Shown in pieces: positions 1-63,198 of a stretch of 63,198 nucleotides of DNA. This DNA comes from a virus. The stretch lies in IMG/VR virus record IMGVR_UViG_3300028146_000011, positions 1-63,198 of that record; one strand, given 5' to 3'. Position 1 is the stretch's first letter; every line of letters starts with the position of its first letter. Both the position numbers and the translations under genes were made by a program. The notes under the pieces were generated by a model. The model was not told where the DNA came from. It was given only the letters and a program-made list of their open reading frames with translations, and made no database searches.

Positions 1-146
1 TGCGCGGTGATGTAGAAGTGTTCATATAGCTACAACTATCTTAAGCTACATGTGCCTATTTGTCAACATGTAATTATTACGTTTTTCGCCTGAGTGCCTT
101 ACGTGCTCTTTCGATCATGGTCTTAGGTGCTGGCCTATGCGCGTCT
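1..146. repeat. Left copy of terminal redundancy
   Basis: These 146 bases are repeated at 63052-63198, so the window closes on itself. The only difference is one T missing from the T-run near positions 20-22 here. The missing base shifts the frame of the small leftward gene that is intact at 62892-63077, so this copy probably holds a sequencing or assembly error at the contig edge rather than a true variant. The copy also carries a promoter and one near-match of the dispersed palindrome (69-81, last base G). Confidence 0.95.
38..66 (-). promoter_or_regulatory. Leftward sigma70-like promoter at the redundancy
   Basis: On the minus strand TTGACA (61-66) is followed after 17 bp by TAAGAT (38-43). 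The -35 box continues into AATAGGCA, a run shared with two other leftward promoters near 12.17 and 12.37 kb. A one-mismatch palindrome (69-81) abuts its upstream side. In the right copy the boxes fall at 63113-63118 and 63090-63095, and the predicted start lies only a few bases before the ATG at 63077, so that message would be almost leaderless. Confidence 0.6.
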
Positions 147-301
147 ATAAAGGTACACGCTATATTCCACCCGCTGAGCACGGCTGTGTCAAAGTCTGCC
201 ACGATCTTAGATGCGCGTGTACCGTCCGCGTCTATTACCTCCACGTGGTATTTATTGTCGTAGCCGAGAATGATTTGCATAGATTTGATGTGCTGTTTCA
301 T
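77..301 (-). CDS. Small hypothetical protein (74 aa)
   Basis: A 74-residue protein with a basic C-terminal end (residues about 61-74 rich in R and K) and no family I recognise. It lies directly downstream of the DNA polymerase gene in the leftward early operon, separated by 16 bp. A Shine-Dalgarno-like GGAGAC lies just upstream of the ATG. Its 3' part lies in the terminal redundancy, so the gene crosses the arbitrary join of the circular genome. Confidence 0.75.
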   Translation of the reverse strand: MKQHIKSMQIILGYDNKYHVEVIDADGTRASKIVADFDTAVLSGWNIACTFIDAHRPAPKTMIERARKALRRKT

Positions 302-317
302 AAAGTCTCCAATTAGG

Positions 318-1805
318 CTACTTTGGCAATAGGCCCCATGAGGTGGCCTTTGCTACACTTGCTTTGATTTCTACCGCGAAGCAGGGGAAGAGTGTTTCAA
401 ACCGATACTTGACCATGCTCCCCAACTCATCGGCCATGTCGTCTCTCACCTCAAATAGTAGCTCATCGTGTACTTGCAGCAGGGGGTGTACCACCTCGTA
501 TATGCTCTCTCCGCAAGCGTCCAGGTCGTCGTCTACTGCTGCCATTGTTATCTTAATGGTGCCCTGTGCTCCACTCTGCATTGGGTGGTTACTGCCTTCA
601 CGCAAGGTATTAGCGACTACCCAATCGTGAACGCTCCTCACTCCCTGTGTGTGCAGGATGCGGCCCCACATATCCACCATGTAGGCATTGCGCCGCATAT
701 AGGCGTGGTCGGCACGCCGCATTGGTATTAGGTAAGAGTACCGTTGGTAGAACTGATTGATTTGATTCTGGCAGGCTGTCTCAATCCAGAGTGGCACAAA
801 CCGATGACATGCTTGTGACTCACCATTTTCTGCGGCCTTAGCTCGGGCCTTCTCTGTGTGTACCTTGCCATCGTGGAAGCAGTTAGCACAGACTACCGGC
901 ATCTGATCCTGTAGTCCCATCGCGGTCACGTCATAGATGCAGGCGAGTACAGAGATTTTAGCCGGTCGCCTGTGCTTCATTTTGTCAACAGTTGGATAGT
1001 GCCAGCCCTCCGCATCCTTATATCTCTGATCTGGCAGCTTGTTGGCGAATGTGGCGAAGTCGCTATAGATGTCCTCTTGATTCTGGTACACACGGATGAG
1101 GTTAGGGTCCTTGCTTCTGTGTGCAGCTATGCGGACTTCGATTTGTGACTCGTCAATGCTGACGATTGACCACCCACTCTTAGTTATGAATCCTTTGCGT
1201 ATCTCTCTGCCTCTGTCTGTGCGAGTGGGCATAGCTAAGAGGTTAGGGTCTTTGCAGGATAGTCTGCCAGAAGTGACGCGGGTGTGATTCAGGTTGGGGA
1301 ACATCCGCCACTCATCATGAGCAACGTGTACAGCAAGTGAGAACATAGGGTCAACGTACGTACCCTTCAGCTTCTCAAACTCTTTGTAGTCCTGTAGATG
1401 GGGTACTACTGGGTGCTCATGCTGTATAGCTGTGAGCACTTCATCAGCCACGCTCTCACGGTCACCGCTGGGAGTCATCTTGCGGCGGGCTTGCTTGAGT
1501 CCCAGCTTCTTAAAGAGAAGGTCTGCTACTTGGTCACCAGATCCAGGGTTGACATAGTAGCCAGTGATAGACCGGATGTCTTCGACGCAGCGCTCCATGT
1601 CGTCAGAGAGCGACTTTTGCATCTTGGCGAAGTGGTCAAGGTCCACTTGCAGCCCAGTGGCCGCCATCCTATTTATCATGGGCAAAGCGCCCATGTCGAT
1701 AAGCTCTACGTTACGTCTGCACGGTCCTAAGCCGTCGATAAGTCTGATGTTGTTGTAGAGCTTCCAGAGGCGTGGATAGACTACTGGCAGGCGAGTCTGG
1801 AGCAT
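318..1805 (-). CDS. DNA polymerase family A, polymerase domain only
   Basis: The template-directed replicative polymerase palm, fingers and thumb. Motif A is DESQIEVRIAAH (about 218-229), motif B is RRPAKISVLACIYD (about 279-292) and motif C is QVHDELLFEV (about 444-453), so the metal-binding Asp residues are present. Relative to E. coli Pol I, the position equivalent to Phe762 is Leu (287), a state reported to be enriched in temperate phages, and the Gly after the motif-B Tyr is Asp. An insertion at about 303-335 carries CxxC and a further Cys-His. There is no exonuclease domain in this 495-residue protein; that lies in the gene at 3434-4819, six small genes upstream. The palindrome at 1807-1819 touches the start codon and no Shine-Dalgarno is visible. 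Family assignment is firm. Confidence 0.93.
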   Translation of the reverse strand: MLQTRLPVVYPRLWKLYNNIRLIDGLGPCRRNVELIDMGALPMINRMAATGLQVDLDHFAKMQKSLSDDMERCVEDIRSITGYYVNPGSGDQVADLLFKKLGLKQARRKMTPSGDRESVADEVLTAIQHEHPVVPHLQDYKEFEKLKGTYVDPMFSLAVHVAHDEWRMFPNLNHTRVTSGRLSCKDPNLLAMPTRTDRGREIRKGFITKSGWSIVSIDESQIEVRIAAHRSKDPNLIRVYQNQEDIYSDFATFANKLPDQRYKDAEGWHYPTVDKMKHRRPAKISVLACIYDVTAMGLQDQMPVVCANCFHDGKVHTEKARAKAAENGESQACHRFVPLWIETACQNQINQFYQRYSYLIPMRRADHAYMRRNAYMVDMWGRILHTQGVRSVHDWVVANTLREGSNHPMQSGAQGTIKITMAAVDDDLDACGESIYEVVHPLLQVHDELLFEVRDDMADELGSMVKYRFETLFPCFAVEIKASVAKATSWGLLPK

Positions 1806-1814
1806 GTGTAATGA

Positions 1815-1964
1815 TTACAGTCCTGTGGCCCAGCCCCAGAAGGTTTCCACCACTAGAGTCAGGCCGTAGAGTAAGCAGGCGATACCGAGGACGCAGAGGA
1901 TGCCAACTATCCACACGATAGCTTTGCTGGACCACAGCCAAATGATACGATCAGCCCATTTCAT
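1815..1964 (-). CDS. Small membrane protein (49 aa)
   Basis: A short protein with a single hydrophobic stretch (about residues 13-38) between a basic N-terminus and a Trp-rich tail, so probably a single-pass inner-membrane protein. Its ATG overlaps the TGA of the preceding gene (ATGA) and its own TAA stop is supplied by the palindrome at 1807-1819. The chain of overlaps supports translation in the early operon. No function can be assigned. Confidence 0.75.
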   Translation of the reverse strand: MKWADRIIWLWSSKAIVWIVGILCVLGIACLLYGLTLVVETFWGWATGL

Positions 1965-3013: not shown

Positions 3014-3030
3014 GACTGTAATGATTACAC

Positions 3031-3219: not shown

Positions 3220-3437
3220 TTCTCTCTCCACTCCTTCATTGCCGTAGCGCAGTCCCAAGCCTCTGACTGCTTGGCGTCACACTTCTCGTCTATCTTTAAG
3301 AAAGTGCGTACCATCATCCAATACCGCACTGTCATTTCAGCCGCTTTATCTCTGGCTAGTAGGACGAATACAGGCTCGTCGTCTTTAGCTTTATTGAGAC
3401 AGCTATTAGGGTCGCGTATTTCGTCTATTTTCTTCAT
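3147..3437 (-). CDS. Conserved-type phage hypothetical protein (96 aa)
   Basis: Contains the segment DDEPVFVLLARDKAA (about 20-34), a pattern I associate with small conserved phage proteins of unknown function. The start ATG overlaps the TGA of the UDG/exonuclease gene. The product is soluble, with a Lys-rich C-terminus. It lies immediately downstream of the exonuclease half of the polymerase. Confidence 0.8.
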   Translation of the reverse strand: MKKIDEIRDPNSCLNKAKDDEPVFVLLARDKAAEMTVRYWMMVRTFLKIDEKCDAKQSEAWDCATAMKEWREKWLQDTTKQPLEAGSTKSKDTEKI

Positions 3438-4819
3438 GCTGCTACCTCTCTCCAAGTCTCTTGTAGACCTTTCCTGATCCTGCTCTCCATATGCATAAGC
3501 ACGTCACGTAGTCTGCGCAATGCGTCAGCGTCACGACAGGCGTAATGTTTCACCTTCTCCCAGTCGTCCTCTGCTGCGTGCGTGATGCACTTCCCCGGCC
3601 ACTCACCCATTCTCTTCTCAATCATCTGGTGGGAGTCCACCCAGTTCTTAGTCCACTGCTCAAAGATGTTGATAGACGGGTCCTTTTCGTACTTAGTAAA
3701 GAACGTTTTGAGCTTGGTCTTCATGCTGTGTGGCTGCTTGTCCTTCCACGAGCCGTCCTTCTGCCGTTCACGTACTGGCTCTGGCTTAGGCCAGTCCTCT
3801 CTTGCTGCATCCCCATAGTAGGCCAGCACACGACGAGTGCTGTGCGGTGCGACGACATCATCAAAGTCCATCATCTCCATGCCTAACTCGCGGAAGGCTA
3901 ACGCTTTAAGGCCCTGTGGTATATTGCCCAAGTTGAAGGCCCTCACCATTGTGTCGATGATCTTATGCTTGGGGAATCGTAGGCCCATCTGCTTGGTGAT
4001 CGGGTAGTCTGCCATCCAGTTGTGCCATAGGATGTCGCCCTCCCATATGTCTAAGTGCTCTTGAAACGCGGCTAGAGCTAACTTGTTCTCTGCTCTGATG
4101 AGCCGTCCACGTCCAGCCCTTGTTGTGTAACTGAGACAGAATGCGAGTCTTTTGCGTGTGAACTCTGTATCACAGGCAAGCGGTTGGTCAGCCTCTCCGT
4201 CGAGATCACGGTGTACGTCTGATGAGGTAATAGACTCTGCGTAGTCTTCCAGACCGGCGTACTCATCAAACCCAAGCTGAAGCCGCCCGTTGATGTACTG
4301 TCGCAGTCGATACCAGTCTGTCCTGATCTGGAGCATCTTCTTCGGCTCATGAATCCCTCCTGCTGGGTGGTACATCGGGAATGTCCAGCCCCATTTAGTC
4401 TGTAGTGGCATCCCGTGGTGTAGTTCAAGGTTGATGTCTGGGTCAATCGCATGGCAGGCGAAGGCTCCCATTGGGATGATTAGAGATGCCGGGTATTGTT
4501 GAAGCTCTGGGTACAGCCGGTGACCGGCACACGTGTACAGCAACTCGCGGTGCGCTGGTTTCTTAAGGTCCAGCTTGTGCTCCGACGTGTCCGGTAGACA
4601 GCCAATAGCATTACCGATTCTAATGTTTCCTCTACGTAGTCCAGCCAAAGGCAGGTATCCATTGTCCACTTCCTTTCCTGTCTTGCCTACGAAACACTCA
4701 CCCTTGCGCTCCTCTTCCCAGCCGGGTGCCTCACCTATGAACTTGTAGGAGCTAGTGCAAGGCCCCATGAATGGGACACATTTATACTTGCCTGGGCAGG
4801 CTGGGCAGCGGTCGCTCAT
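3434..4819 (-). CDS. Uracil-DNA glycosylase (family 4-like) fused to 3'-5' exonuclease
   Basis: Two domains in 461 residues. The N-terminal part (about 1-190) matches iron-sulfur UDGs: Cys at 5, 8 and 14, the signature GEAPG (29-33) followed by CFVGKTG, further Cys at 74 and 97, and HPAGG (151-155). The C-terminal part is a DnaQ-type proofreading exonuclease: ExoI DTEF (217-220), ExoII HNWMADYP (266-273) and ExoIII YACRDAD (426-432). It should remove uracil from DNA and supply proofreading to the polymerase domain encoded separately at 318-1805. The last residues correspond to where the thumb would begin in an unsplit enzyme. Domain calls are confident; catalytic state is inferred from conserved residues. 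Confidence 0.9.
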   Translation of the reverse strand: MSDRCPACPGKYKCVPFMGPCTSSYKFIGEAPGWEEERKGECFVGKTGKEVDNGYLPLAGLRRGNIRIGNAIGCLPDTSEHKLDLKKPAHRELLYTCAGHRLYPELQQYPASLIIPMGAFACHAIDPDINLELHHGMPLQTKWGWTFPMYHPAGGIHEPKKMLQIRTDWYRLRQYINGRLQLGFDEYAGLEDYAESITSSDVHRDLDGEADQPLACDTEFTRKRLAFCLSYTTRAGRGRLIRAENKLALAAFQEHLDIWEGDILWHNWMADYPITKQMGLRFPKHKIIDTMVRAFNLGNIPQGLKALAFRELGMEMMDFDDVVAPHSTRRVLAYYGDAAREDWPKPEPVRERQKDGSWKDKQPHSMKTKLKTFFTKYEKDPSINIFEQWTKNWVDSHQMIEKRMGEWPGKCITHAAEDDWEKVKHYACRDADALRRLRDVLMHMESRIRKGLQETWREVAA

Positions 4820-4998
4820 AATCTCTTAAGTATCTCGTTTGCAAGAGACTTAGCCTGTTCTACAGTCAGACCAATAGTTCTCTCCCCCTTCCATATGTGA
4901 ACCATTTGGATTTCACCGTTAGGGGCTAAGTCAGTTTTGAATACTACTGTTATTGGACTCTGCTCTGTGTCCTTATTATTGGTTACTTCCCTGTCCAT
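4816..4998 (-). CDS. Small hypothetical protein (60 aa)
   Basis: A short two-part protein: a polar N-terminus, a predicted beta segment and a C-terminal amphipathic helix (EQAKSLANEILKRL). Start and stop overlap both neighbours, placing it between the ERCC4 nuclease and the UDG/exonuclease. Function unknown. Confidence 0.8.
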   Translation of the reverse strand: MDREVTNNKDTEQSPITVVFKTDLAPNGEIQMVHIWKGERTIGLTVEQAKSLANEILKRL

Positions 4999-5714
4999 AT
5001 CTCCCTCGCAATTCTCTTAGCCGTACGTGGGCTGATCCCGTGTATCTTCACCCAATCAGTCTCATCTGAGTTGCCCATCTCATGCAGACTGCTGAATATG
5101 TCATCCGCTCTACTACTGAGCTTCACACCTAGCCCGTCAATCTGCGCCGCACATCGTCTCACAAGTGTCGGCCTGCCGCCTATCTCAGCAAGTGGGAGTA
5201 GCTGTATCTCAAGCAGGCTCGTGTGGTCATCCCATGCCTTACGGAAGTATTCGTACAACATGCAGACGTTGTAGGCTGTGCCGTACTGATCTCTGCTGGG
5301 TGTAATGATTACACCTGAGAGTGCAACTGAGACTAAATAGTTGAATAGTTTAGAGTAGAGTGGCGGCCTTTGCCTGTAGCGGCACACTCCCCATGATGCT
5401 CCACCCTTGAAGCCCTCCATCAGCGTGCCCTCGTTATCGTGTGGCTTGTACAGCCCTTCGATTGCGAGGAAGCTCAACTGATAGAGGGTACGCATTCCAC
5501 CCCTCTGCACACCGGCATACCGCGCGTCATCTATACAGTGGAGCATGTCATGCAGTGACTTGCGCTCTACACCTATATTGATGACACCCTCTGGACCATT
5601 GCCCTCAAAGGCAAAGTCAGCGTACTTGAGGTTAGCTAACACAGCTTGGTAGCCTATGCGTTGTATGGTGGGCAGCAGTTCCCTACTGCCTGTTTCGTGG
5701 GCGACTAGGATCAT
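4983..5714 (-). CDS. ERCC4/XPF-type nuclease with helix-hairpin-helix
   Basis: The structure-specific nuclease signature ERKSLHD (E50-R51-K52...D56) with an upstream Asp (33) defines the ERCC4 catalytic domain. The C-terminus (about 222-240, IHGISPRTAKRIAREIW) looks like a helix-hairpin-helix DNA-binding motif. In XPF/Mus81 relatives this pairing cuts branched DNA; here it probably processes forks or recombination joints. The palindrome at 5301-5313 lies inside the gene and encodes the in-frame VIIT of SGVIITPSRD, between catalytic and HhH regions. Confidence 0.88.
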   Translation of the reverse strand: MILVAHETGSRELLPTIQRIGYQAVLANLKYADFAFEGNGPEGVINIGVERKSLHDMLHCIDDARYAGVQRGGMRTLYQLSFLAIEGLYKPHDNEGTLMEGFKGGASWGVCRYRQRPPLYSKLFNYLVSVALSGVIITPSRDQYGTAYNVCMLYEYFRKAWDDHTSLLEIQLLPLAEIGGRPTLVRRCAAQIDGLGVKLSSRADDIFSSLHEMGNSDETDWVKIHGISPRTAKRIAREIWTGK

Positions 5715-8005: not shown

Positions 8006-8006
8006 T

Positions 8007-8702
8007 TCACTCTCCTATCGCGTAGATTCCGTCGTTGTCTTGTGATGCAAGCCAGTGATCCCTATAGTCGCGTAGAGTTGCCCAGTTGTTCTCAAGCTCA
8101 ATGTCCTCAAACTCTAGCTGCCACGCCATGTTTTTGGGCCTGATTGGATACGTGTAGTCTCCGCACACAAACAGCACGTGCAGCACAGCGAACCGTGTCT
8201 TACGCGCCAGACAGTATCCCTTGATCTGAGCCATCCACATCCACTGGCGTTGAATAGCTTGGGCTAACTCCTCCGCTGTGGCGATTACGTAGTCTCTGCC
8301 TGCCACAGTGCGGACACTCTTATATGTGCATTTGACTTCGTGGACTACACACGCCATCCGTGGGCCGGTAGATGTAATGATTACACTCACCGACTCACCA
8401 TCACGGCTCATGTAGACGCCTTCGTGACATATCTCTGGTGGGTGGTCCAGTACGTTGTGGTGACGTGTGAGCACTTCTGGGATATAGTAGCGCTCCCACC
8501 CGATGCCTAAGCCTATGCGGCCTAGAGCTACTGGGTCTGTGATATCCCGTGAGTCAACTAGTGACAACTCCTCCACGGCATCAGGCGTCAGTATGCCGTG
8601 CTCAATAGCTATGTTGCGTATGATGGAGGACTGATGAATACCGGGTGACCGCCCATCAGGTGGTGGGAGTTGCAGGTCAAAAGTAACGGGCGTAACGATC
8701 AC
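8007..8702 (-). CDS. PD-(D/E)XK (Cas4/RecB-like) nuclease
   Basis: I start the gene at GTG 8702, which overlaps the upstream TGA (GTGTGA) and gives MIVTPVTFDLQLPP. The nuclease core shows HEVKCTYKS (E-x-K, about 121-129), an upstream Glu/Asp pair, and a Q-x3-Y-like MAQIKGYCLA, as in Cas4/RecB exonucleases. With the neighbouring ATPase it likely forms the recombination or end-processing set. One exact palindrome (8373-8385) encodes VIIT in frame, and a degenerate one (8690-8702) overlaps the start and encodes VIVT. Confidence 0.78.
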   Translation of the reverse strand: MIVTPVTFDLQLPPPDGRSPGIHQSSIIRNIAIEHGILTPDAVEELSLVDSRDITDPVALGRIGLGIGWERYYIPEVLTRHHNVLDHPPEICHEGVYMSRDGESVSVIITSTGPRMACVVHEVKCTYKSVRTVAGRDYVIATAEELAQAIQRQWMWMAQIKGYCLARKTRFAVLHVLFVCGDYTYPIRPKNMAWQLEFEDIELENNWATLRDYRDHWLASQDNDGIYAIGE

Positions 8703-9172
8703 ACTGCAAGCTCCACACCGGACAGCGAATCTAGCCACCGAGAGCACTTCTTACGCCACTCTCGTACGAGCTTGGCTGATTCCTTTGTCTCAAACATAGC
8801 AACGGCTGCCGAATCATCTGCGCCTAACATGATGCGGCGCACCGATAAAGCCTCTTTAACCGGATCGCTGCCCAGGCACGCTTGTAGAGCAATACGGGTT
8901 AGTGGCAGTAGAGGCATGTCTACACACACATAAACATGGTAGTTGTTGCCGCCACTCTTACTAGGTACAGTTAGTATTTCCTCAAAATGTCGTAAAGAGT
9001 TGGTAGACAAGACGTTGAGTACGGGGTTGCTTAGATGCTTTGCCACCTGTATTTCATACTCTTCATCGTAGTCCAGTACAAGCTCGTTGGGCAGGGGGAA
9101 GAAACACTCAAGACCAAGGTCAATGGCAGTTAGTTCTGCGTCAGACTGCGTACGTTGGATAACTTCACTCAT
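8699..9172 (-). CDS. Hypothetical early protein (157 aa)
   Basis: An acidic N-terminal half and a more basic C-terminal half ending in KCSRWLDSL. No motif is recognised. The gene stands between a Pro/Ala-rich protein and the Cas4-like nuclease and shares overlapping stop/start bases with the latter, so co-translation is likely. Confidence 0.85.
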   Translation of the reverse strand: MSEVIQRTQSDAELTAIDLGLECFFPLPNELVLDYDEEYEIQVAKHLSNPVLNVLSTNSLRHFEEILTVPSKSGGNNYHVYVCVDMPLLPLTRIALQACLGSDPVKEALSVRRIMLGADDSAAVAMFETKESAKLVREWRKKCSRWLDSLSGVELAV

Positions 9173-10262: not shown

Positions 10263-10289
10263 CTTGTGTCTTTCTCCAAAGTGTAATGA

Positions 10290-10562
10290 TTACATTTCCT
10301 GTTTTGTCCTAGCGACACTCGCTAGTCCGTTTCGTATCCAAGCTCTCGCGGCTTGGGTCGCTTCAAATCCTGTATCCTCCTCTCCACCATTGCCAAGCGC
10401 CCACCAGTAATAGACATCACGTCGAGTCTCACCTCTGCCTACTGACCCCTTCCACATATAATACTCACCCTTCTTACCGTTGTCTGCTGTGTATGCTACA
10501 CAGACTGCTTCAATTGGCACTCCCTGTGGTCTGGGCTTGTGTGGGATTTCATCCTGGCTCAT
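10290..10562 (-). CDS. Hypothetical protein (90 aa)
   Basis: Aromatic-rich core (YYMWKG, DVYYWWALG) and a helical Ala/Arg-rich C-terminus. The start is taken at MSQDE because it overlaps the helicase stop (ATGA). The stop TAA is provided by the palindrome at 10282-10294. No family is recognised. Confidence 0.8.
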   Translation of the reverse strand: MSQDEIPHKPRPQGVPIEAVCVAYTADNGKKGEYYMWKGSVGRGETRRDVYYWWALGNGGEEDTGFEATQAARAWIRNGLASVARTKQEM

Positions 10563-12136
10563 GGTAGCCTCGGTGGTGGCGGCGGTACTACTAGCGCCGG
10601 TGTTACCTTGAAGTGTTTGGGTACTAGATGACCTACTCTGTTGAGGAACCAATCTCCATGTCCATCGGCTAGTACCGTCTCGCATTGGTCCTTCTCATCT
10701 CGCATTGGCCTGCCCACCATCTGTACGAGTCGTCGGGCAGCATTGTACACACGGTACTCTCTGTCCTCCGCTTCTCTCGCCTTGAGGATCTTTGATGGCG
10801 GCTCGAATGGAATCTTACAGATGTACTGCCACTCACAGCGCTTGAAGCGGAAGTCATAGCCTGACTCAACGCTTGGGCTAACGAGTATCGCACCAGGATA
10901 GGTACCGTAGAAGCGCTCTAGTGTCTCCGCAACCGGCTCACCCTTATCGTTATAGATCATGTTGTTACCAAAGCGGCTGGCGTTCACGATCTCCTTGCGC
11001 CGCTCATAGCTGACCGTATGCACGACACAGTTGCGGTCTGTGCGTCTAGCGTGGATCTGATCGAACTTGAGCCAAAGGGGAGCTAAGCTATCTGCTCTGC
11101 TATCCACCCGCATTGCAGGTGAGTAGTAGACTGGGCAGCGCTCTGGAGGGAAGGTGGACGGGAACTCTCTAAACTCTGAATCCGCTCTGCCGATACCCAT
11201 CATATATAAGGTCTTGGGGCGAATCGTGGCAGACACAAATATGATATGAGGTACGTGCAGTAGTAGCGTGCTCTCCGCATACCGGCCAATGCGTATCGGG
11301 TCGAACTGATACCCAACGTTATTGATCTGTTCGACTATCCAGTCCTCTGGCCGTGCTGACTTGACTACTGCGAGACGACGCCAGAGATTCCGCATATGTG
11401 TGTAGTGTCTGACGTGAGATGGACGCGGTGAGGAGACGCCAGTTATCCGCGCCCGTGCGATGTTCATCTCGTTCTCTGCAACAGAGGCAGCATGTCTGGC
11501 CCATGTGCGCCATATCTCAATCTCTTCTGCCTCATGTGCTGCTGGGAAGCTAAGCTGTAGGTCCTTCTCTACCTCCTTGAAGTTGAGGACAACTCGCATC
11601 GCTTCTGCGATAGCATCAGGCCCTTCGTCACCTTCGTCGAATACCACCTGCTGAAAGTGGGCCATGCCGGTACCGTACTTGCGGCTGGCCGTCCACTTAG
11701 CATAGTTCGTTACCACTAAAGAGGATGCAGCGGCGGCCATCTCAGCTTGGCTGGAGGCGCACATGACAGTCCCGCGATGTGGGCAGTTAGCTGCGGTGCC
11801 TTCCTCACAGCTATAGTCTTCTCTCAGAGTGCATGGGTAGTTCTGCTTCCCCATGAGAGACACCATTCCACAGTCGCTAAAGTCCTCCATGTACTGTTTT
11901 TGCAAGGCCCTGCTATAAGTAACGATGCAGGTGGGACGGGCACTATACAGAGCACCGCCCACTACGGCGAGAGACTTGCCGAATCCTGTTGGCGCACAAG
12001 CCGCCTTGACTCTTTTGTTGGATGTAATGATTACATCAAGGAACTCTTCTTGGGCAGGACGCCAGCGGTCGAACTTAGCAGGAAGACCTAGCTCTTGGGG
12101 GGTTGGTATGCGGCGAGGTGGCCGGGTGAGTGCCAT
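10559..12136 (-). CDS. DinG/XPD-like superfamily 2 helicase
   Basis: Walker A is APTGFGKSLAVV, the DEAH-box equivalent is VVFDEGDEG, and motif VI is QMVGRPMRDEKD. Between Walker A and the DEGD box are four Cys (YPCTLREDYSCEEG...NCPHRGTVMC) in the position of the iron-sulfur domain of DinG/XPD helicases. It should unwind DNA 5'-3' in replication or repair. I prefer the ATG at 12136 (MALTRPPRR) to the one at 12163 because a promoter -10 box overlaps the latter; the message would then be nearly leaderless. The palindrome at 12023-12035 lies in the gene as VIIT just before the P-loop. It is the first gene of the leftward early operon. Confidence 0.88.
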   Translation of the reverse strand: MALTRPPRRIPTPQELGLPAKFDRWRPAQEEFLDVIITSNKRVKAACAPTGFGKSLAVVGGALYSARPTCIVTYSRALQKQYMEDFSDCGMVSLMGKQNYPCTLREDYSCEEGTAANCPHRGTVMCASSQAEMAAAASSLVVTNYAKWTASRKYGTGMAHFQQVVFDEGDEGPDAIAEAMRVVLNFKEVEKDLQLSFPAAHEAEEIEIWRTWARHAASVAENEMNIARARITGVSSPRPSHVRHYTHMRNLWRRLAVVKSARPEDWIVEQINNVGYQFDPIRIGRYAESTLLLHVPHIIFVSATIRPKTLYMMGIGRADSEFREFPSTFPPERCPVYYSPAMRVDSRADSLAPLWLKFDQIHARRTDRNCVVHTVSYERRKEIVNASRFGNNMIYNDKGEPVAETLERFYGTYPGAILVSPSVESGYDFRFKRCEWQYICKIPFEPPSKILKAREAEDREYRVYNAARRLVQMVGRPMRDEKDQCETVLADGHGDWFLNRVGHLVPKHFKVTPALVVPPPPPRLP

Positions 12137-49918: not shown

Positions 49919-50012
49919 GTGTCCTCTCTTCTGAGTGTAATCATTACACCCAAGAACAGAGTATCACGACTGCCCCTTCTTATATGGTCGCTACATACTA
50001 CCATCTATATAT

Positions 50013-50669: not shown

Positions 50670-50689
50670 TTGAACGTGTTCAGAGTGTA

Positions 50690-50896: not shown

Positions 50897-51191
50897 TTAG
50901 TTTTACAACTGTCCACTTTCATTTTTTATTCAGCTGTACTCACCCGGCGCCTCTCCCCCGCACATCCCCCCACCCACCCCTTAAACAATGGATTCAATCA
51001 ATCGTTTGAAAGTGTAATGATTACACTGCGCCTCGCATGGCAGGCAGGCTAGACGGTGACACGCCGGACTGCCTGACAGACCATCCCAATCTGGCCAGCC
51101 TATGCCGTCATACGCTCGCGTAGCGAGCGGATGGCGAGCATACACTACGTAGTAGTGTATGCGAGCAGGCATATAAGAACGGTCGCAGCGA
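50897..51191. other. Intergenic region with palindrome and two triloop hairpins
   Basis: No convincing gene. It holds an exact palindrome (51013-51025) and two perfect hairpins with GTA loops: CGCTCGC/GCGAGCG at 51113-51129 and GCATACACTAC/GTAGTGTATGC at 51138-51162. A C-rich stretch lies at 50940-50985. It could be an origin or a termination zone between small transcripts. Confidence 0.55.
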
Positions 51192-51518
51192 ATGAATGGC
51201 GAACAAATCGAGTCAGGATCTTGCAGACTCATTGCAGAGTTGTTGCAGCAAGCGGTTGCACACAGGTTGATAGCCATTCTCACGACAGGCAGGTGGACAT
51301 ATCACGGCATACCCTACCGATCGGACGCAGTACAGCGCGTCTACGTGCGATTGCGGGCATGTTTCGTGCTGCGCCTGACTGGTAACTGGCCAGCAAACGT
51401 GGCGCACACGAATTTACATGCTGTTCGCGTAGTGTTCTCCAGTGTAATAATTACAGTATGCCACTTGGCCAACGTGACGATGACTGGCGCTGTCCCGCAT
51501 GCTACAGACGCGGTGTGA
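51192..51518 (+). CDS. Doubtful hypothetical ORF (108 aa)
   Basis: Codon use does not strongly favour it and it runs 61 bp into the zinc-ribbon gene downstream. In its favour, the palindrome 51443-51455 encodes VIIT in this frame (SSVIITVCHL), as it does in proven genes. No domain is recognised. It may simply be an open frame. Confidence 0.35.
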   Translation: MNGEQIESGSCRLIAELLQQAVAHRLIAILTTGRWTYHGIPYRSDAVQRVYVRLRACFVLRLTGNWPANVAHTNLHAVRVVFSSVIITVCHLANVTMTGAVPHATDAV

Positions 51519-51655: not shown

Positions 51656-52355
51656 ACCTATTGTATATAGGGCTTTGGGTGGTGGTGGTTATCGTCCATG
51701 TGTGGTGGATATAAACCAGGGTACATTTCCCTTTATTCTCAACAGTTTAGATAAGCACAAACTAAACGTGTCAGGTGTATACCCTGGTTGAAAACCACCA
51801 AACTGTAATCATTACAGTGAGGCAAAGTGAAGCAAACAAAGACTAGTTGAGATGTTGCCTATTTGGCAACGATATTGCTCTATATGTCCCCGTAGTCAGA
51901 TAGAGCGGTACCTAAACGGTAGGTTGAGCGTAGCGGGTAGTACCCCGTAGCGTGGTGTGATGAGCATCACGTGGGAATCGGGGAATACGCCTTGCCGGAC
52001 CTACCCTTGAATGCGTCTGAATCACTCGTGATGGACGCAGGGGAGTATCTATCTGTGTGGTGCACGTCTTAACTGACACTATGCACTGCTCCAAGTCTGT
52101 ATAACAGACGAACACGCGATAGGCTGGATAGGCCAACACGAGCTAACAAATGTCGTTTGTGCCTCAGTAGTAACAGCTAATAGACGGGTGTCCCCCATCG
52201 AAAGCGTAAGTAGACGGAAAACAGACTATATTGACAGTCCCCACTACACGGATGGTAGATCGGCTAGTATGGCCGAAATTACATATGGATTCGCTCACTT
52301 ACTCTTGGAAAGTGGGCAGGTACAGTGCTTATGCTGTCTGTGAGGTACTCAAACG
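51656..52355. other. 700-bp gene-poor region rich in hairpins
   Basis: Contains the nested dyad at 51683-51800, the palindrome 51804-51816, the hairpin GTTGCC-TATTT-GGCAAC (51854-51870), GTGATG-AG-CATCAC (about 51957-51970) and GTCTGT-ATA-ACAGAC (about 52095-52109). TTGACA at 52231-52236 is followed only by a weak -10 box. A 24-codon frame (52269-52343, MAEITYGFAHLLLES...) ends just before the next ribosome-binding site. Otherwise I see no gene. This is a candidate replication or regulatory region. Confidence 0.55.
51683..51800. other. Nested inverted repeats (three-layer fold)
   Basis: Outer arms TGGTGGTT/AACCACCA (51683-51690 and 51793-51800), middle arms AACCAGGGTA/TACCCTGGTT (51714-51723 and 51780-51789), inner arms GTTTAG/CTAAAC (51745-51750 and 51762-51767). 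All are perfect and concentric, and the structure ends 4 bp from a palindrome. Would form one long hairpin in RNA or single-stranded DNA. Confidence 0.75.
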
Positions 52356-54429: not shown

Positions 54430-54471
54430 CCAGCATACCTGTAATGATTACACATGCTGAAGAGGAGTAAA

Positions 54472-54582: not shown

Positions 54583-54674
54583 GGTGCTCTAACGGTCCTC
54601 TGCCTACACGGTGGAGCGCCGCCAGTGCATCAAGTGTAGTCATTACAGATGTTGCATTGGAGAATCGAGCAACT

Positions 54675-55957: not shown

Positions 55958-56221
55958 ATGAGTGTAATCATTACAGTGGACCGGGATGGTAACCCAGTCA
56001 GCCGTGAGGACACCATACGAATGATGGAGGAAGCAGAGCATCATGCAGATGAGCGCTGCCCGTCCTGTCATCACTTATGGGAAGATCACGTAGAGGATAC
56101 AGACGACGGCGAGAGCTACTGTGTCGGTAACCTACGTGAGAACTCAACCCAGTTACCAACAATCGGATATGCACCGCTGTGTGTTTGTAGGCAGCGCTAT
56201 AGTGTCACAGATCAAATGTGA
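55958..56221 (+). CDS. Small zinc-type protein (87 aa)
   Basis: Begins MSVIITVDRDGNPV, where VIIT is encoded by the palindrome 55963-55975, five bases after the A of the start codon. CPSCHHLWEDH, then C and CVC later, may bind zinc. An early site of this kind could block the gene at its start. Confidence 0.8.
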   Translation: MSVIITVDRDGNPVSREDTIRMMEEAEHHADERCPSCHHLWEDHVEDTDDGESYCVGNLRENSTQLPTIGYAPLCVCRQRYSVTDQM

Positions 56222-56581
56222 ATACACTACGCTGTCGAAGCAGGTGGGCTGGATTCAGGATGCTGTAAGCATCCTTCCAGACCATTATACACATTTAAGT
56301 CAAGTGAAATCAACGACTTAGATGGGTTCTTTACAATTCTTTACAATCTGGGGTGGTCCTAGACGTTGGTAGGGGTGTCCGATCGCGGTGTAATGACCCC
56401 GTAATAGGCCAAAAAAACACCCATTTCTGACCCATTTCGGCCCGATGTAATCATTACAGTCGGTCCAAACATTAAGGCTTTGTTAATCCGATTTCCCTTG
56501 CGTTCAGACGTAAGCGGGCTTAGTCTGGAATGGCGAGGGTCACGCATTATGACCCGCACAACACAGAGAGGAACATAACGT
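56222..56581. other. Intergenic region before the ParB-like gene
   Basis: No gene. Contains the hairpin AGGATGC-TGTAA-GCATCCT (56257-56275), a tandem TTCTTTACAAT pair (56327-56347), a half-palindrome near 56390, an exact palindrome (56446-56458), and a promoter-like TTGCGT (56498-56503), 17 bp, TAGTCT (56521-56526). Together this looks like a controlled start of the ParB-like gene. Confidence 0.6.
56498..56526 (+). promoter_or_regulatory. Promoter of the ParB-like gene
   Basis: TTGCGT-17 bp-TAGTCT. The predicted start is near 56533, and AGAGAGG 12 bp before the ATG is the ribosome-binding site. The palindrome 56446-56458 lies 40 bp upstream. Confidence 0.5.
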
Positions 56582-57904
56582 ATGGCAAAGAAACAGACAG
56601 CAGAAGCGGTGAGTCCCGACGTGATTCAGCGCGTACCCCCGTCAGTGCTGATCGGTGACGAAAACAGCCGATTTGGACTGAAGGCCAACCGCATTGAGAC
56701 GATGAAGCAGGCGATTCTGGCGCAGGGTGGCATCTTAGTGCCGCTCGAAGTCGTTGCCCTGGCGAGTGCCGTCAATGGTGCAAAGTACCGCATCGAGGAC
56801 GGCCACTACCGGCACGCGGCTGCGTTGGAGTTGTCCAAAGAGTTTGACGGTATTGACTGTCCGGTTATCGTTCGGACACCTCAAGCCGATGAGACTCCGC
56901 TGAAACGGCTCATGCGGCAGACGGCCATCAACATGGAACGTGAAGCGCTCTCCCCGATGGATATCGCAGTCGCCATCAAACAGATGTACGACGGCGGCAT
57001 CCCCCGGCAGGAGATCCGCAACTTGTTCCAGCGTCCTGGTGGTCGCAAGGGCAATAAGGTCCAGCAACTCAGCAACTCGATGATGAACATCTACATGTCT
57101 TTCCTGGACTTCCCCAAGGACATCCAGGCGAAGATTCACGATGGCATCATCGGCGTTGCGGCGGCGTACAAGCTGTCAACAAAGCCTGCTGAGAAGTGGG
57201 CTGAGATCGTGGCCGAATGTGAGGCAGAGCGTGAAGAGGAACTGAAGGCAGACGAGCAGCGTGAAGAACGCTATCTGTCTGAAGTCAAGAAGGGCGAGGA
57301 GCGCGAAGCCAAGCAGAAGGAGTTGGAGCTTGCCGCCGTCGCTGCGCAAACCGCTGTGGACGAGAAGGCTAAGCTGGCCGACGAGAAGATCAAGGCTGAG
57401 GCTGATGCGTTGGCCGCTCTCCGCAAGGGCGCTGCTGACAATGAGGCCAAGAAGAAGCTGGAGGAACACTCGGCGGCAGCTAAGGCTGATTCGGTCGCGG
57501 CGGTGAAGGCGCTCGAAGACGCCAAGAAGGAAGCGGAGAAGGCTGCTAAGAAGCTGGAGACTGTCCGCGAGGAAGCCGCGAAGCGTGCGGCTAAGCTGGC
57601 GGAAGCTCGTGCGGCGGCGGCCAACAAGAAGGCTCCGGCTCCTGACAAGGCTCCGGCTCCCATCGGTGCTGGGCAAGTGGACCGTGCGGCTAACAAGCTG
57701 GGCGGCTCTACTCTGGTGAAGCTCACTGCTCAGCAGATGCGGCAAGCGGTACACGACTGGACGCTGCCCGGCTCCTTCCCCAAGGTGCAGGCACTCGCCC
57801 AGGTCATTATGAAGTGCTTCGACTCCGAGTTGACCCCGGCTCAGGCGTACACTGAGTTGGGCAAGCTCACGGGCGAAGCGAAACCCACAACCAAAAAGAA
57901 GTAG
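56582..57904 (+). CDS. ParB-like N-terminal domain with long coiled coil (440 aa)
   Basis: Residues 15-115 form a ParB/sulfiredoxin-like domain: IGDENSRFG, ILVPLEVVAL and IEDGHYRHAAAL, where G-H-Y-R-H occupies the place of the ParB GERR box, followed by a helical domain with an HTH-like GGIPRQEIRNLFQRPG. Residues about 205-350 are an Ala/Glu/Lys-rich coiled coil. The C-terminus is a small helical domain. Could be a DNA-partition, NTP-using or regulatory protein. No ParA partner was seen. Confidence 0.78.
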   Translation: MAKKQTAEAVSPDVIQRVPPSVLIGDENSRFGLKANRIETMKQAILAQGGILVPLEVVALASAVNGAKYRIEDGHYRHAAALELSKEFDGIDCPVIVRTPQADETPLKRLMRQTAINMEREALSPMDIAVAIKQMYDGGIPRQEIRNLFQRPGGRKGNKVQQLSNSMMNIYMSFLDFPKDIQAKIHDGIIGVAAAYKLSTKPAEKWAEIVAECEAEREEELKADEQREERYLSEVKKGEEREAKQKELELAAVAAQTAVDEKAKLADEKIKAEADALAALRKGAADNEAKKKLEEHSAAAKADSVAAVKALEDAKKEAEKAAKKLETVREEAAKRAAKLAEARAAAANKKAPAPDKAPAPIGAGQVDRAANKLGGSTLVKLTAQQMRQAVHDWTLPGSFPKVQALAQVIMKCFDSELTPAQAYTELGKLTGEAKPTTKKK

Positions 57905-57951: not shown

Positions 57952-58026
57952 GTTTCCTAATGCGGCCACTGTAATGATTACGGTGAGTGTTCCTAAGCCA
58001 CTAACGCAGAAGGGGAAAGAGGTGTT

Positions 58027-58302
58027 ATGTATTTGACATCAGGTCAAGTCTTACTGTTCTGTGCGCTCCTCTGGGCCGTGTTGCTCCTGTGGCCTAAGAT
58101 GGGTGCTGCATTTGGGTCGCTGCTAACACGCCACTCGTGGGCCTTGCAGCGGCTCTACGCTCATCTGGGGCGTGGTCTGGCCGCGTACAGTGAGCGTATC
58201 CAGCGGAGGATCAACTATCCCGAGGTGTCATTTGAGTATGACCTGGAGGGTGAGAACCGTGTGGATGCAGCACTTAAGGAGGTGACCAGACGGGGACTGT
58301 AA
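58027..58302 (+). CDS. Membrane-anchored small protein (91 aa)
   Basis: AGAGG precedes the ATG. An N-terminal hydrophobic helix (about 7-24) then a basic, amphipathic region (LTRHSWALQRLYAHL). Probably membrane-associated. The TAA stop comes from the palindrome 58298-58310, which also supplies the stop of the convergent gene. Confidence 0.75.
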   Translation: MYLTSGQVLLFCALLWAVLLLWPKMGAAFGSLLTRHSWALQRLYAHLGRGLAAYSERIQRRINYPEVSFEYDLEGENRVDAALKEVTRRGL

Positions 58303-58310
58303 TGATTACA
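58298..58310. promoter_or_regulatory. Palindrome giving stop codons on both strands
   Basis: Exact TGTAATGATTACA. On the plus strand TAA at 58300-58302 ends the membrane-protein gene; on the minus strand TAA at 58308-58306 ends the gene at 58306-58671. It sits exactly between two converging transcripts, the site where a bidirectional roadblock would be useful. Confidence 0.85.
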
Positions 58311-58671
58311 CGCCGTCAGGTGGGGGGCTAAACAGCTTGCGGTCTGCAATCTGCTTGTTTAGCTCCTCGCGTGTCTTAGTGGTCGTTAGTCTGTTGCGCT
58401 CTCCCACGATGTTTCGTAGAGCACAGAACAGTAGATCCCATAGACCGCGAGTGGTTCTGTTGAACCCCTGCACGTTCCCAGTGCGCCACGTATTACCTTT
58501 TGGCCAGTAGTGACCGCCGTACACTCCACCCCACAGTCTTACCTCATAGTCACCGAGATCCCCGCTACTCTGCACAGTAGTTCGCACGGTGTTGTTGATC
58601 TCTGCTCGTGCAAACTCTTGTGCTCGTGACTCATCCCCACCCGGCCACATCTCCACTTTAATAACGATCAT
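58306..58671 (-). CDS. Hypothetical protein (121 aa)
   Basis: Starts MIVIKVEMWPGGDESRAQEF and includes NDTVR-like strands; the pattern (GDLGDYEVRLWGGVYG) is of a small alpha/beta protein. ATG overlaps the stop of the RRM gene by about 14 bp. It is the last gene of the leftward early operon. Confidence 0.78.
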   Translation of the reverse strand: MIVIKVEMWPGGDESRAQEFARAEINNTVRTTVQSSGDLGDYEVRLWGGVYGGHYWPKGNTWRTGNVQGFNRTTRGLWDLLFCALRNIVGERNRLTTTKTREELNKQIADRKLFSPPPDGV

Positions 58672-58981
58672 GGTCGTCTCTTCTCTGTGCGTGCCTACCT
58701 TTGCCGTCCCCGCTCTTTCTCTCTCCTCTCGGCTTGTCCACAGCGATTCTCGCCGCAATGGGCCGCCCCATAAACTCCATACCGTTGATCCTGTCAATGC
58801 ACTCGTCCCTACCCTCATCGGACGAGAACTCCACGAATCCAAAGCCCTTAGACCGTCCATTATCCTTGTCAGTCACGATGCTAACCTTGGTGGGCCGTGC
58901 TGTCACGTTCCGCATAACAAGGTCTGTGATGTCGTCTGCCGTCGCTCTGTACGACAGGTTTGCGATAAACACTTGGCTCAT
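58658..58981 (-). CDS. RRM-type RNA-binding protein (107 aa)
   Basis: RNP2 is VFIANLSY (4-11) and RNP1 is KGFGFVEF (about 45-52), with the regular beta-alpha-beta spacing of a single RNA recognition motif, followed by a charged RGERKSGDGKGRHAQRR tail. RRM proteins are widespread in bacteria but rare in phages. It could act on phage RNA, for instance the leader hairpins; that link is inference. Confidence 0.9.
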   Translation of the reverse strand: MSQVFIANLSYRATADDITDLVMRNVTARPTKVSIVTDKDNGRSKGFGFVEFSSDEGRDECIDRINGMEFMGRPIAARIAVDKPRGERKSGDGKGRHAQRRDDHDRY

Positions 58982-59163: not shown

Positions 59164-59204
59164 AGTGTCACCTGTAATCATTACACTTTGGCAAGTTCCC
59201 ACGG

Positions 59205-61268: not shown

Positions 61269-61788
61269 TCTCGTCCTCTTCCTTCTCGTCGGGCTTCTGA
61301 ATGCGCAGTGTATAGCTGGGCTTGCCGTACTTCACACAGGCGCTCTTAATGCTGTGGATCTGCTCATCCTTCAGCCCTGCCGCAAGTAGAGCGTTAACTA
61401 GGTCAATCTCTTTGATGGTGACGCGGCCATCTGTGGCATAGTAGTTGATCGTCCAGCCTTCCCACAGTGCTCTGCTCACCTTGTTCTTACCAAGTATGTC
61501 CTTGATTCTCCGCGTGAGGGGCTTGCGCTCTCGTTTTGCTACTATCTCGGCTTCGGCCAGTTCACGCTCCTTAGTCAAATAGCGCACTAGCTCAAGCTGA
61601 GTCTTGCGGTCAGTGATGATAGCCGTAAGCTCCGGTACCGTCTCCTCTTCCTTAGAGGGTGGCGGCGTAATGGGTGGCTCTGGTGGCTTGACTCTCTTCA
61701 CTGACGCTTTGAGCCGGTCCTCAATGCTCATCTCATGGGGCACAGGAGGAGGTGTAGGTGGTTCGGGAATAGTCTTGCGCGTAATCAT
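61255..61788 (-). CDS. Hypothetical protein (177 aa), Pro-rich N-terminus
   Basis: The first 45 residues are Pro/Glu-rich and disordered; the rest (about 50-175) is helical with a C-terminal strand. The ATG (MITRK) is inside a near-palindrome (61780-61792), as with the 49403 and 50690 genes. Its role is unknown. Confidence 0.8.
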   Translation of the reverse strand: MITRKTIPEPPTPPPVPHEMSIEDRLKASVKRVKPPEPPITPPPSKEEETVPELTAIITDRKTQLELVRYLTKERELAEAEIVAKRERKPLTRRIKDILGKNKVSRALWEGWTINYYATDGRVTIKEIDLVNALLAAGLKDEQIHSIKSACVKYGKPSYTLRIQKPDEKEEDENGEY

Positions 61789-62216
61789 TACACTTCTCCT
61801 TGTGGTAACGCAGCAGGCTCCTGCACGATTGGGGTAAATGTGGGCAGCCGTTTGACAACTGCCGCCATTACTTCCTCGATATCAAGGCCATCCCCTCGGT
61901 TGTCAATTGCGTGGTTGAGTGCTGCGATGCTCCCCAGCCCCAGTTGTACCCACCTCAAGCAGGCGAGAGCCACGTCAGCCCTTCTGTTGCACACGTCTGA
62001 AAATAGCATCCAGATGCGTGGACCATAGATAGCGTGGGTATCAAGTGACAATAGAGGTGCTACGGCCCCCAGCATAGACTGCGGGTCAACGGTAGGGTTT
62101 GCCATTGCCATCTCCATGCAGGCACTCACCGCTCCTGGGTTGCCTTCAGATATCTTCTCGATTGCAGAAATAGGCGTGTCGCTCAATTCGATTCGTTCAT
62201 GGTGTCTCACGTTCAC
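61788..62216 (-). CDS. Hypothetical protein (142 aa)
   Basis: Mostly helical with several Ala/Leu-rich segments; MLFSDVCNRRADVALACLRW is hydrophobic and perhaps a structural core. No family recognised. It overlaps the 61788 start by one base. Confidence 0.8.
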   Translation of the reverse strand: MNVRHHERIELSDTPISAIEKISEGNPGAVSACMEMAMANPTVDPQSMLGAVAPLLSLDTHAIYGPRIWMLFSDVCNRRADVALACLRWVQLGLGSIAALNHAIDNRGDGLDIEEVMAAVVKRLPTFTPIVQEPAALPQGEV

Positions 62217-62222
62217 TCTCCT

Positions 62223-62741
62223 TTATGCTTTTTCTTTCGATAGTTGAGACTTGAGAGCGTGGTCGTGCATAAGCTCATCAAGAGCCTCTGAGTAGTTGGC
62301 TAGTTCAAGTCGGCCAAAGCCTTTAGTGCTCAGCTTTAGTTCCTCTAGCTGTTTGGTTGCCTTCTCCATCTGCTTCCTAGCTGCAATGAACGCCTCCAGC
62401 ACAGCACGGCATCCAGGAGTGTCAGGTACGACGTGCCTTAGAATTTTATCTTTGGGTATTCCAGTCAGTAGGAAGTCTTTGCTTGTACGGTTGATGCCGG
62501 TGAGGACGGCTTTATGCACTGTATTACCGTCCTCGTCACTACTAAAGTATGATTGCTTGGTCATGAGTCCAAGCACAGGGAGTGACAGCTTGCGCTTAGC
62601 TTCTGGAGTGAGAGCCTTGTCGATGAGGAGCTTCACAGCATCCAGACTGTCAGCAGATACAGTAGCCTCTTCGAGTACGCCAACAAACTTACCGCTGCTC
62701 TCTACCTGGATCTCGATGCCTTTATGTGTGAACAGTGCCAT
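62223..62741 (-). CDS. Hypothetical protein (172 aa)
   Basis: An N-terminal beta-rich part and a C-terminal coiled-coil-like helix (KQMEKATKQLEELKLSTKG). No family recognised. Part of the operon with the AbrB-like gene, overlapping it by 20 bp. Confidence 0.8.
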   Translation of the reverse strand: MALFTHKGIEIQVESSGKFVGVLEEATVSADSLDAVKLLIDKALTPEAKRKLSLPVLGLMTKQSYFSSDEDGNTVHKAVLTGINRTSKDFLLTGIPKDKILRHVVPDTPGCRAVLEAFIAARKQMEKATKQLEELKLSTKGFGRLELANYSEALDELMHDHALKSQLSKEKA

Positions 62742-62895
62742 TACTTTCTTCCTTATTTAATGTCAACTTCCCAGGCTCCTCAACTGTAATGATTACACGG
62801 TCGCCTTCCTTCAGACCTGATGCAGCTAACACCTGTGCTGTCAGCGTAACCACTACGCTGCATGAGGAGCGGCGAACTTTGACGATTGCTCTCAC
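62722..62895 (-). CDS. AbrB/MazE-type swapped-hairpin DNA-binding protein (57 aa)
   Basis: Start at GTG 62895, overlapping the previous TGA (GTGA). IVKVRRSSCSVVVTLTAQVL and GLKEGDRVIITVEEPGKLTL follow the AbrB/SpoVT/MazE beta-hairpin pattern. Such proteins bind DNA and often serve as antitoxins or transition-state regulators; no toxin lies adjacent. The palindrome 62785-62797 encodes the VIIT of DRVIITVEE. A candidate regulator. Confidence 0.78.
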   Translation of the reverse strand: MRAIVKVRRSSCSVVVTLTAQVLAASGLKEGDRVIITVEEPGKLTLNKEESNGTVHT

Positions 62896-63077
62896 CGCTG
62901 TCCTGGTGCCTCCACAACGCCCTCGATAGATGCCGCAAGCCATCCAGGACGTCTCAGTCGGAGATTGTTGAAGTAGTTAAGAGCATTGTCCCGTGACGTG
63001 GCGTATACGTCTTCCGTGTGCCATCCAGTCACGGAGTAGGCTTGACTGCACTGCGCGGTGATGTAGAAGTGTTTCAT
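62892..63077 (-). CDS. Small hypothetical protein (61 aa)
   Basis: MKHFYITAQCSQAYSVTGWH then a helical part and Arg/Gly-rich segment. The start lies next to the promoter in the terminal redundancy, so the message would be almost leaderless. The left copy (position about 20-25) lacks one T and would break this frame. Confidence 0.78.
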   Translation of the reverse strand: MKHFYITAQCSQAYSVTGWHTEDVYATSRDNALNYFNNLRLRRPGWLAASIEGVVEAPGQR

Positions 63078-63198
63078 ATAGCTACAACTATCTTAAGCTA
63101 CATGTGCCTATTTGTCAACATGTAATTATTACGTTTTTCGCCTGAGTGCCTTACGTGCTCTTTCGATCATGGTCTTAGGTGCTGGCCTATGCGCGTCT
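63052..63198. repeat. Right copy of terminal redundancy
   Basis: This 147-base stretch matches positions 1-146 with one additional T. It shows either a circular genome or a circularly permuted, terminally redundant one joined by an assembler; the short overlap looks like an assembly overlap rather than a long direct terminal repeat. The reading frame of the gene at 62892-63077 is intact here, so this copy should be taken as correct. Confidence 0.95.

Follow-up and report, generated by a model that had tools for sequence, protein, structure and literature searches.

Noc of Bacillus has dispersed palindromic sites, acts on the chromosome and on cell division and carries an N-terminal amphipathic membrane helix, and the ParABS centromeres of phages and plasmids comprise few sites. 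KorB of plasmid RK2/RP4, which is ~60 kb in size, has operators (OB) of the sequence TTTAGCSGCTAAA, with S at the centre. The subject here is a 13-bp palindrome, TGTAATNATTACA (in duplex form TGTAATGATTACA), dispersed along the IMG/VR virus record IMGVR_UViG_3300028146_000011, together with a ParB-like gene of the same genome; the window refers to the whole stretch analysed, 63,198 nucleotides (nt). PMC10954446 describes twelve palindromic 13-bp operators for KorB of RK2/RP4, and PMC11790492 describes a KorB clamp that acts up to 1.5 kb away and OB sites located 4–10 bp or 45 to >1,000 bp upstream of promoters. The stoperators of cluster A phages, according to PMC6550527, are many dispersed sites mostly off promoters, with a motif that shifts between related phages, and the cluster includes both integrating and parABS members.

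Among these systems the closest analogue of the array is the KorB-OB system of plasmids, more so than the L5 stoperators. As in RK2/RP4, a ParB-family protein goes together with several palindromic 13-bp operators across one replicon, and KorB is first by Z among the structural matches of that protein; unlike RK2/RP4, the replicon is a phage, with ~40 near-perfect, evenly spaced sites of another motif sequence, the relation to KorB in sequence is distant (E 1e-4), and the only candidates for a KorA-like partner in the window are two small helix-turn-helix proteins at 12.4–12.9 kb. The L5 sites are likewise numerous, dispersed and mostly outside promoters, with a motif that shifts among kin, but they are asymmetric, transcription-oriented and bound by Rep, whereas the window has symmetric palindromes and a ParB-family candidate. 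Since 40 of the sites are perfect palindromes, they lack the asymmetric, oriented form of the L5 sites, and the term stoperator, applied to them in the initial annotation of this DNA, fails in its L5 sense on one defining feature. Noc belongs to the same superfamily, gives the highest profile score and also has dispersed palindromic sites, but on a chromosome rather than a 63-kb phage, and the ParABS systems of P1, N15 and the cluster A parABS phages share a ParB-family protein and palindromic sites but not the tens of sites or the absence of an AAA_31 ParA found here. With a probability of roughly 55%, the palindromes serve as operators for a ParB/Noc/KorB-family protein that the phage itself encodes, together forming a KorB-like clamp network that silences the phage genome. 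No report of such a network on a viral genome was found in the literature searches made.

The count of 40 exact and 7 one-mismatch copies given at the outset was reproduced. At up to two mismatches 49 matches are present, of which 40 are exact, 8 have one mismatch and 1 has two; because the window ends repeat, the one-mismatch match at 63121–63133 is a copy of the site at 69–81, leaving 7 distinct. Dinucleotide shuffles (n=100) gave a mean of 1.86 and a maximum of 6 matches at this tolerance, in agreement with the claim that the motif stands far above chance. G or C occupies the centre in 36 of the 40 exact sites. Mean spacing over the 47 sites is 1,342 nt, as expected from the proposed average of ~1.3 kb, and the statement that no gap exceeds 3.4 kb holds with the seven one-mismatch sites included (largest gap 3,271 nt) but not for the exact sites alone (4,261 nt). 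On a circle, the 47 sites are spaced more evenly than random ones (coefficient of variation 0.61, P = 0.0003, 10,000 simulations), and no point of the genome lies further than 1,636 nt from one of them. Among the viral sequences compared, such a density is special, since kin of 62–64 kb without any TGTAANNNTTACA exist and, in a motif pattern scan of the viral collection in which 80 of at least 116 stretches holding GTGTAATSATTACAC were examined, 54 had a single relaxed site and 26 had two or more.

The sites lie mostly at gene junctions, as had been noticed: 57% of the 40 exact sites have a start or stop codon no more than 25 nt away, against 12% of random positions, and 25% are wholly intragenic, against 84%. 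These placement counts use a hand-picked gene set in which 51.7–54.5 kb has no gene calls, and the gene starts at 12010, 38101 and 48380 had been moved just downstream of sites, so that the 57% is inflated by at most three sites. All 10 intragenic sites are read in a single frame, as V-[IM]-I-T. The further suggestion that sites sit beside promoters drew little support: 4 of the 47 touch a sigma-70-like promoter match, against 1.4 at random (P = 0.06), and a sigma-70 promoter association was rejected on this count. Individual cases are the one-mismatch site 69–81, with a 10-of-12 match (TTGACA-17-TAAGAT) 2 nt downstream of it, the exact site 12655–12667, 6 nt upstream of the −35 element of an 11-of-12 match on the XRE side, and the exact site 50307–50319, which overlaps a TTGACT-18-TACACT match. 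Formation of an RNA hairpin was rejected by reasoning, since the 6-bp stem would have to close on a loop of a single base, which is not possible as such.

Relatives of the phage were collected via portal and head proteins (G numbers denote records, L numbers loci), and their sites were mapped onto the window by protein alignment; in the start-based mapping, opposite-strand sites that appear displaced by exactly 10 occupy an identical place, and in the comparison with G051 and G052 site centres were mapped. In G005, 8 of the 18 mappable sites have a window site no more than 30 nt away (0.7 expected, P = 2.5e-7), as do 6 of 11 in G051 (0.44 expected, P = 1.5e-6). The positional excess is also clear in G035, G036 and G037 and weaker in G003, G006 and G008; the test was not workable in practice for G013, G014 and G026. 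Four exact intragenic sites keep their codon across several genomes, with proteins 44–64% identical where measured: 5301–5313, within 4983–5714 (G035, G036, G051 and G052, with G037 within ~6 nt); 8373–8385, within 8007–8747 (G035, G036, G037, G049, G051 and G052); 13840–13852, within the glycosyltransferase gene (G005, G036 and G037); and 24866–24878, within 23030–26458 (G005 and G036). The exact site near the helicase start, 12023–12035, shares its place with G035, G036 and G037, and 17950–17962 with G035, whilst junctions are shared by the exact sites 21313–21325 (G005, G036), 28111–28123 (G005), 30980–30992 (G003, G005), 32205–32217, upstream of the major head protein gene (G003, G006, G008), and 33024–33036 (G005, G006). 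Counterparts slightly displaced were found for the exact sites 1807–1819 (G051, within 10 nt), 38655–38667 (G005 and G008, within 9 nt) and 62785–62797 (G037, 14 nt) and for the one-mismatch site 54635–54647 (G051 and G052, within 6 nt).

By blastp, the matches of G051 and G052 to the window lie in the early/replication part alone and in no structural gene, and their arrays span the entire contigs (38 and 32 relaxed sites), with exact counterparts of the sites at 5301 and 8373. Even spacing was seen in 4 of the 6 genomes tested, namely the window, G036, G051 and G052 (P of 0.0006 or less in the latter three). Together with the counterpart motifs, these kept positions and this spacing give good support to the original proposal of a genome-wide control system, which is likely right.

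The counterpart motifs come from an unbiased search of kin for dispersed palindromes with a one-base centre, compared with the maxima of Markov shuffles. Above the shuffle maximum stood TTCCGASTCGGAA in G027 (9 exact copies), TTCTGASTCAGAA in G020 (6 exact) and TCCAASTTGGA in G038 (5 copies); all three have the same build as the window motif, and the carriers G027 and G020 belong to a sister clade. In the portal tree, TGTAAT members fall in one clade (16 rows, support 100/99) and TTC-type members in another (12 rows, 96/93), and both clades also contain array-free members. Seven records with a close head protein were found first; the array or a variant of it is present in G003, G004, G005, G006 and G008 and absent from G002 and G007, though array-free records include short fragments, in which absence says little. 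Within the window's group the motif has C at position 6 in G050 (TGTAACSGTTACA) and mostly A or T centres in G051 and G052. The same search found no dispersed centre-one palindrome in G017, G021 and G025 (62–64 kb). Three candidates were set aside: GTAGASTCTAC in G041, five copies of which four are distinct owing to an end repeat, and TTCCANNNTGGAA in G015 (4 copies) only equal the shuffle maximum, and the counter-motif GAGCGAGCCG/GAGAGAACCG of G002 forms a local array at 28.3–28.9 kb with one further copy at 17.9 kb. In that local array (L006 11350–11903, equal to G002 28350–28903), repeats of ~18 nt are built on GAGCGAGCCG / GAGAGAACCG.

The favoured candidate reader of the palindromes is encoded at 56582–57904 on the + strand (440 aa). 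It is a divergent member of the ParB/Noc/KorB family, labelled ParB-like by PHROGs, with an N domain carrying GxxR (residues 74–77) and NxxR (117–120), a helix-turn-helix (HTH) and a long helix after residue 203; a ParB N domain followed by an HTH domain is found by both profile and fold comparison. Against solved structures, a ten-member profile matched Noc (E 1.8e-17), Spo0J (1.8e-16) and KorB (1e-4). A second structural model of 240 residues (predicted local distance difference test score 81.6) placed KorB 8qa9_B first (Z 12.3, root-mean-square deviation 4.2, 177 aligned), with Noc 7nfu_B and ParB 6t1f_D tying within 1 Z of it; the first model has low confidence at residues 1–13. Among ten aligned proteins, the putative cytidine triphosphate (CTP)-pocket residues G74, R77 and N117 are present in 10/10 and R120 in 9/10. 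A stretch of two short strands separates the two helices of the HTH, and the recognition helix lies at ~165–176. The gene is bracketed by sites: an exact copy at 56446–56458, ~125 nt upstream, for which G049, G051 and G052 have equivalents ~50–120 nt upstream of their ParB-like genes, and a one-mismatch copy at 57970–57982, directly downstream, with a G036 site mapping 46 nt away.

Gene and array co-occur. The ParB-like gene was found in the window, G005, G036, G020, G038, G041, G045 and G029, and not in the array-free G017, G021 and G025, of which G021 has the window-type polymerase and helicase with neither array nor ParB-like protein. An alignment scan with the protein gave six loci, two in known records (G005 and G036) and four in new contigs, all four of which have arrays (7, 17, 38 and 32 copies of GTAAY-N-RTTAC); a second scan returned G020 and G038 alone. 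In the opposite direction, a motif scan supplied seven multi-site contigs (G053–G059) and nine single-site controls. The four multi-site contigs of at least 25 kb (G053, G054, G055 and G058) all carry the gene, as does one control, G062, whose piece turned out to hold 6 sites; as picked beforehand this is 4/4 against 1/9 controls (P = 0.007), and recounted it is 5/5 against 0/8 (P = 0.0008), with the control G061 carrying two relaxed sites in its piece. Across 28 records of at least 30 kb, five or more identical 5-1-5 palindromes occur in 9 of 11 with the protein and 2 of 17 without (P = 3.6e-4); counting the G041 end repeat once gives 8/11 (P = 0.003, or P = 0.017 without the protein-fetched contigs). 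G034 is an exception to the association, its palindrome count being reached by shuffles.

In the recognition helix, the pattern [ST]N[SA]xxN is present in 7/7 TGTAA-group proteins obtained without use of that pattern (five further TGTAA-group proteins with it were picked using it), the helix reads SRVSE in G020 and G038, and G050, with its TGTAAC motif, has the sole protein with T first and R later in the helix. In this comparison of motifs across genomes, positions 2–5 are fixed by the search pattern, and only 1, 6 and 7 are informative.

On these comparisons, the most likely reader of the sites is the ParB-like protein, in preference to XRE; it was one of three proteins first named for binding tests, and fits better than the XRE repressor. 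A ParB-like dimer would recognise TGTAATSATTACA via its HTH, close into a CTP-loaded clamp and slide onto the flanking DNA. A site every ~1.3 kb puts the whole 63-kb genome within ~1.64 kb of a site. The clamps may silence or adjust every operon, probably while the phage is in a carrier or prophage state or soon after infection, and the small XRE protein may be a partner resembling KorA. Loading sites spaced at the reach of the clamp would allow the whole genome to be silenced, which is the simplest reading. For the proposed clamp we infer binding, CTP use, sliding, silencing and a lysogenic setting; the sites, their positional conservation and spacing, the co-occurrence, the family and fold of the protein and its conserved recognition helix were obtained directly.

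Several observations weigh against the clamp network. The association has exceptions on both sides: no ParB-like gene was detected in the short multi-site records G056, G057 and G059, and no ParB-like frame in the pieces of eight further multi-site loci, covered by pieces only (L195, L207, L214, L217, L219, L228, L238 and L241), among them L238 with 9 sites in 14.9 kb; G029 and G045 have the gene but no clear array; and G027 has its array (TTCCGASTCGGAA, 9 copies) but no ParB-like gene was detected, on a contig without a helicase match, so that the region with the gene may be missing. The reclassified control G062 and the G041 end repeat slightly lower the confidence in this reading, as does the early module of the array-free G017 and G025, which differs as a whole: neither has a polymerase or helicase of the window type, and both are therefore less informative than G021. 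Evenness of spacing is weak in G005 (P 0.048) and not clear in G050 (P 0.15). The window protein scores under Pfam cut-offs, its GERR motif is reduced to GxxR, and the Foldseek E-value for the first model puts Myxococcus ParB above KorB. Searches of the window found neither a tyrosine integrase nor an AAA_31 ParA, and XRE also co-occurs within the TGTAAT group, with a site upstream. The length of OB itself differs between sources, 16 bp in PMC11790492 and 13 bp in PMC10954446.

The main alternative to silencing is a role in partition: the ParB-like protein would bind the sites, which would then serve as a dispersed centromere or as a packaging or condensation scaffold by which the genome is held or segregated through a host ParA or, as with Noc, through the membrane. 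We regard this as unlikely. The protein family is the same, G041 has four distinct sites of which two (49 and 2897) surround its ParB-like gene at 778–1728, the window and G005 have no integrase, as is the case for plasmid-like prophages, and in G051 and G052 the sites cover unmatched structural regions too. However, PF13614 (AAA_31), the sole ParA model tried, was absent in 12/12 records tested, including the window, and an array of 30–45 sites exceeds the usual need of partition systems. Positions just upstream of genes also suggest regulation, though junctions may simply be harmless spots.

Less probable still is that the 78-aa XRE protein (HTH_3; 12378–12614, − strand), the regulator suggested in the initial annotation, acts like L5 Rep, as an immunity repressor whose binding to the palindromes blocks both initiation and elongation. 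XRE is present in the window, in eight other records (G005, G035, G036, G051, G054, G055, G056 and G058) and in L238, and palindromes suit HTH dimers. The gene does face one copy, as first noted: the exact site 12655–12667, between the XRE gene and that of a small HTH-like protein, lies 40 nt from the XRE start codon, and a site is also upstream of XRE in G005, G035 and G051 and ~30 nt off in G036. However, no XRE above threshold was found in the palindrome carriers G020, G027 and G038 (two HTH_3 matches in G038 are weak, E 0.002 and 0.005), nor in G037, a TGTAA-array record that covers that region, and G002 has XRE without an array, with the ParB region lying outside its contig. Moreover, five differing XRE recognition helices (DNTYLSRI, YPNHLSRI, SASHLSRV, DQSWLSRI and STSHLSML) occur at a constant TGTAATSATTACA; the recognition helix is kept where the motif is kept for the ParB-like protein, but not for XRE, which is therefore not the best-supported regulator.

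It is very improbable that a regulator of the host binds the sites and that the phage adopted a host operator, given that searches by protein and by motif both link the array to a phage gene and the motif groups track phage clades. Neutral repeats, that is, functionless copies of a short palindrome that is mobile or copy-biased, would fit the near-identity of the copies but hardly the codon position kept in several genomes, the even spacing or the one reading frame shared by all 10 intragenic sites, and are barely credible.

The clamp network, if true, would be KorB-like and on a viral genome, a kind known so far from plasmids. It would also provide a natural series of motifs (TGTAATS, TGTAACS, YGTAATW, TTCTGAS and others) with matching proteins, opening the ParB-family recognition code, the reach of the sliding clamp and what may be a new type of phage immunity to direct laboratory tests; an array sequence that shifts along with the recognition helix of its clamp could be an immunity determinant. 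At a little short of even odds, a group of phages may have made a ParB/KorB-family CTP clamp serve as a silencer that coats the genome, with dozens of identical loading sites at about clamp reach, kept by selection even inside genes, spanning unmatched structural modules joined to one early module and shifting in sequence with the recognition helix.

The window ends, 1–146 and 63053–63198, are the same ~146 bases with a one-base difference, and the window is therefore probably a complete genome of ~63.05 kb. The record is classed as linear, and the end repeats would probably fit assembly from a circle or from terminal repeats. Its genes include those for a split DNA polymerase, a helicase, and major head, portal and terminase proteins. 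A tyrosine integrase was found neither in the window nor in G005; integrases are present in the kin G017, G020, G025, G029, G038 and G041, so the wider phage group probably includes temperate members. By terminase, the closest named phages (~24% identity) are the Tunturiibacter phages Tunturi_1 and _2, isolates described in PMC11924767 as podovirus-type, from Acidobacteriota of tundra soil. No nucleotide match was found to window 1–25000 in the named phage collection or to 40000–63198 in the plasmid collection, nor any match for the portal alignment in genome_contigs or the polymerase query in viral_contigs. A query with the first 240 aa of the G050 ParB-like protein returned 1 weak phage record and 174 plasmid records, all below 60% identity.

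The remaining exact copies of the palindrome lie at 3017–3029, 10282–10294, 15449–15461, 22444–22456, 26841–26853, 30241–30253, 33900–33912, 35862–35874 (upstream of the portal gene), 38118–38130, 40829–40841, 42943–42955, 47204–47216, 48406–48418, 48553–48565, 49936–49948, 50686–50698, 51013–51025, 51443–51455, 51804–51816, 54440–54452, 55963–55975, 58298–58310 and 59173–59185, and the remaining one-mismatch copies at 19552–19564, 43933–43945, 49131–49143 and 61780–61792.

Divergent from XRE lies the gene of the small HTH-like protein (74 aa, 12713–12937, + strand), which has no Pfam or PHROG match. It was rejected as a reader: G017 and G025 have it without an array, and none was found in G051, which has 38 sites. 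Its family is kept close to glycosyltransferase genes in several kin, some members standing, by eye, behind a TTGAC...TAAACT-like promoter. Just upstream of the gene, at 12678–12699, an inverted repeat also seen by eye, TTGTAATT-N6-AATTACAA, includes two TGTAAT half-sites at wider spacing.

DNA polymerase A is encoded in two genes (318–1805 and 3434–4819) that match successive parts of one PHROG profile, and two such genes likewise occur in G005, G049, G051 and G052. The gene at 58658–58981 encodes a small protein in which an RNA recognition motif is clear (RRM_1, E 9e-14), and that at 62722–62943 a small MazE/AbrB-like protein (PF04014, E 3e-5, slightly under the cut-off). Repeats of other geometry were also seen: in Tunturi_1 (L004/L007), where no ParB-like gene was detected, an even-centred palindrome, GTCCAANNTTGGAC, has 9 copies when one mismatch is allowed; in G021 (L063–L066), GGCC-N11-GGCC occurs 37 times in 62 kb and may be a coding repeat; and in the distant relative G048 (L162–L165), the dispersed palindrome TCCGG-N8-CCGGA occurs 30 times in 68 kb.

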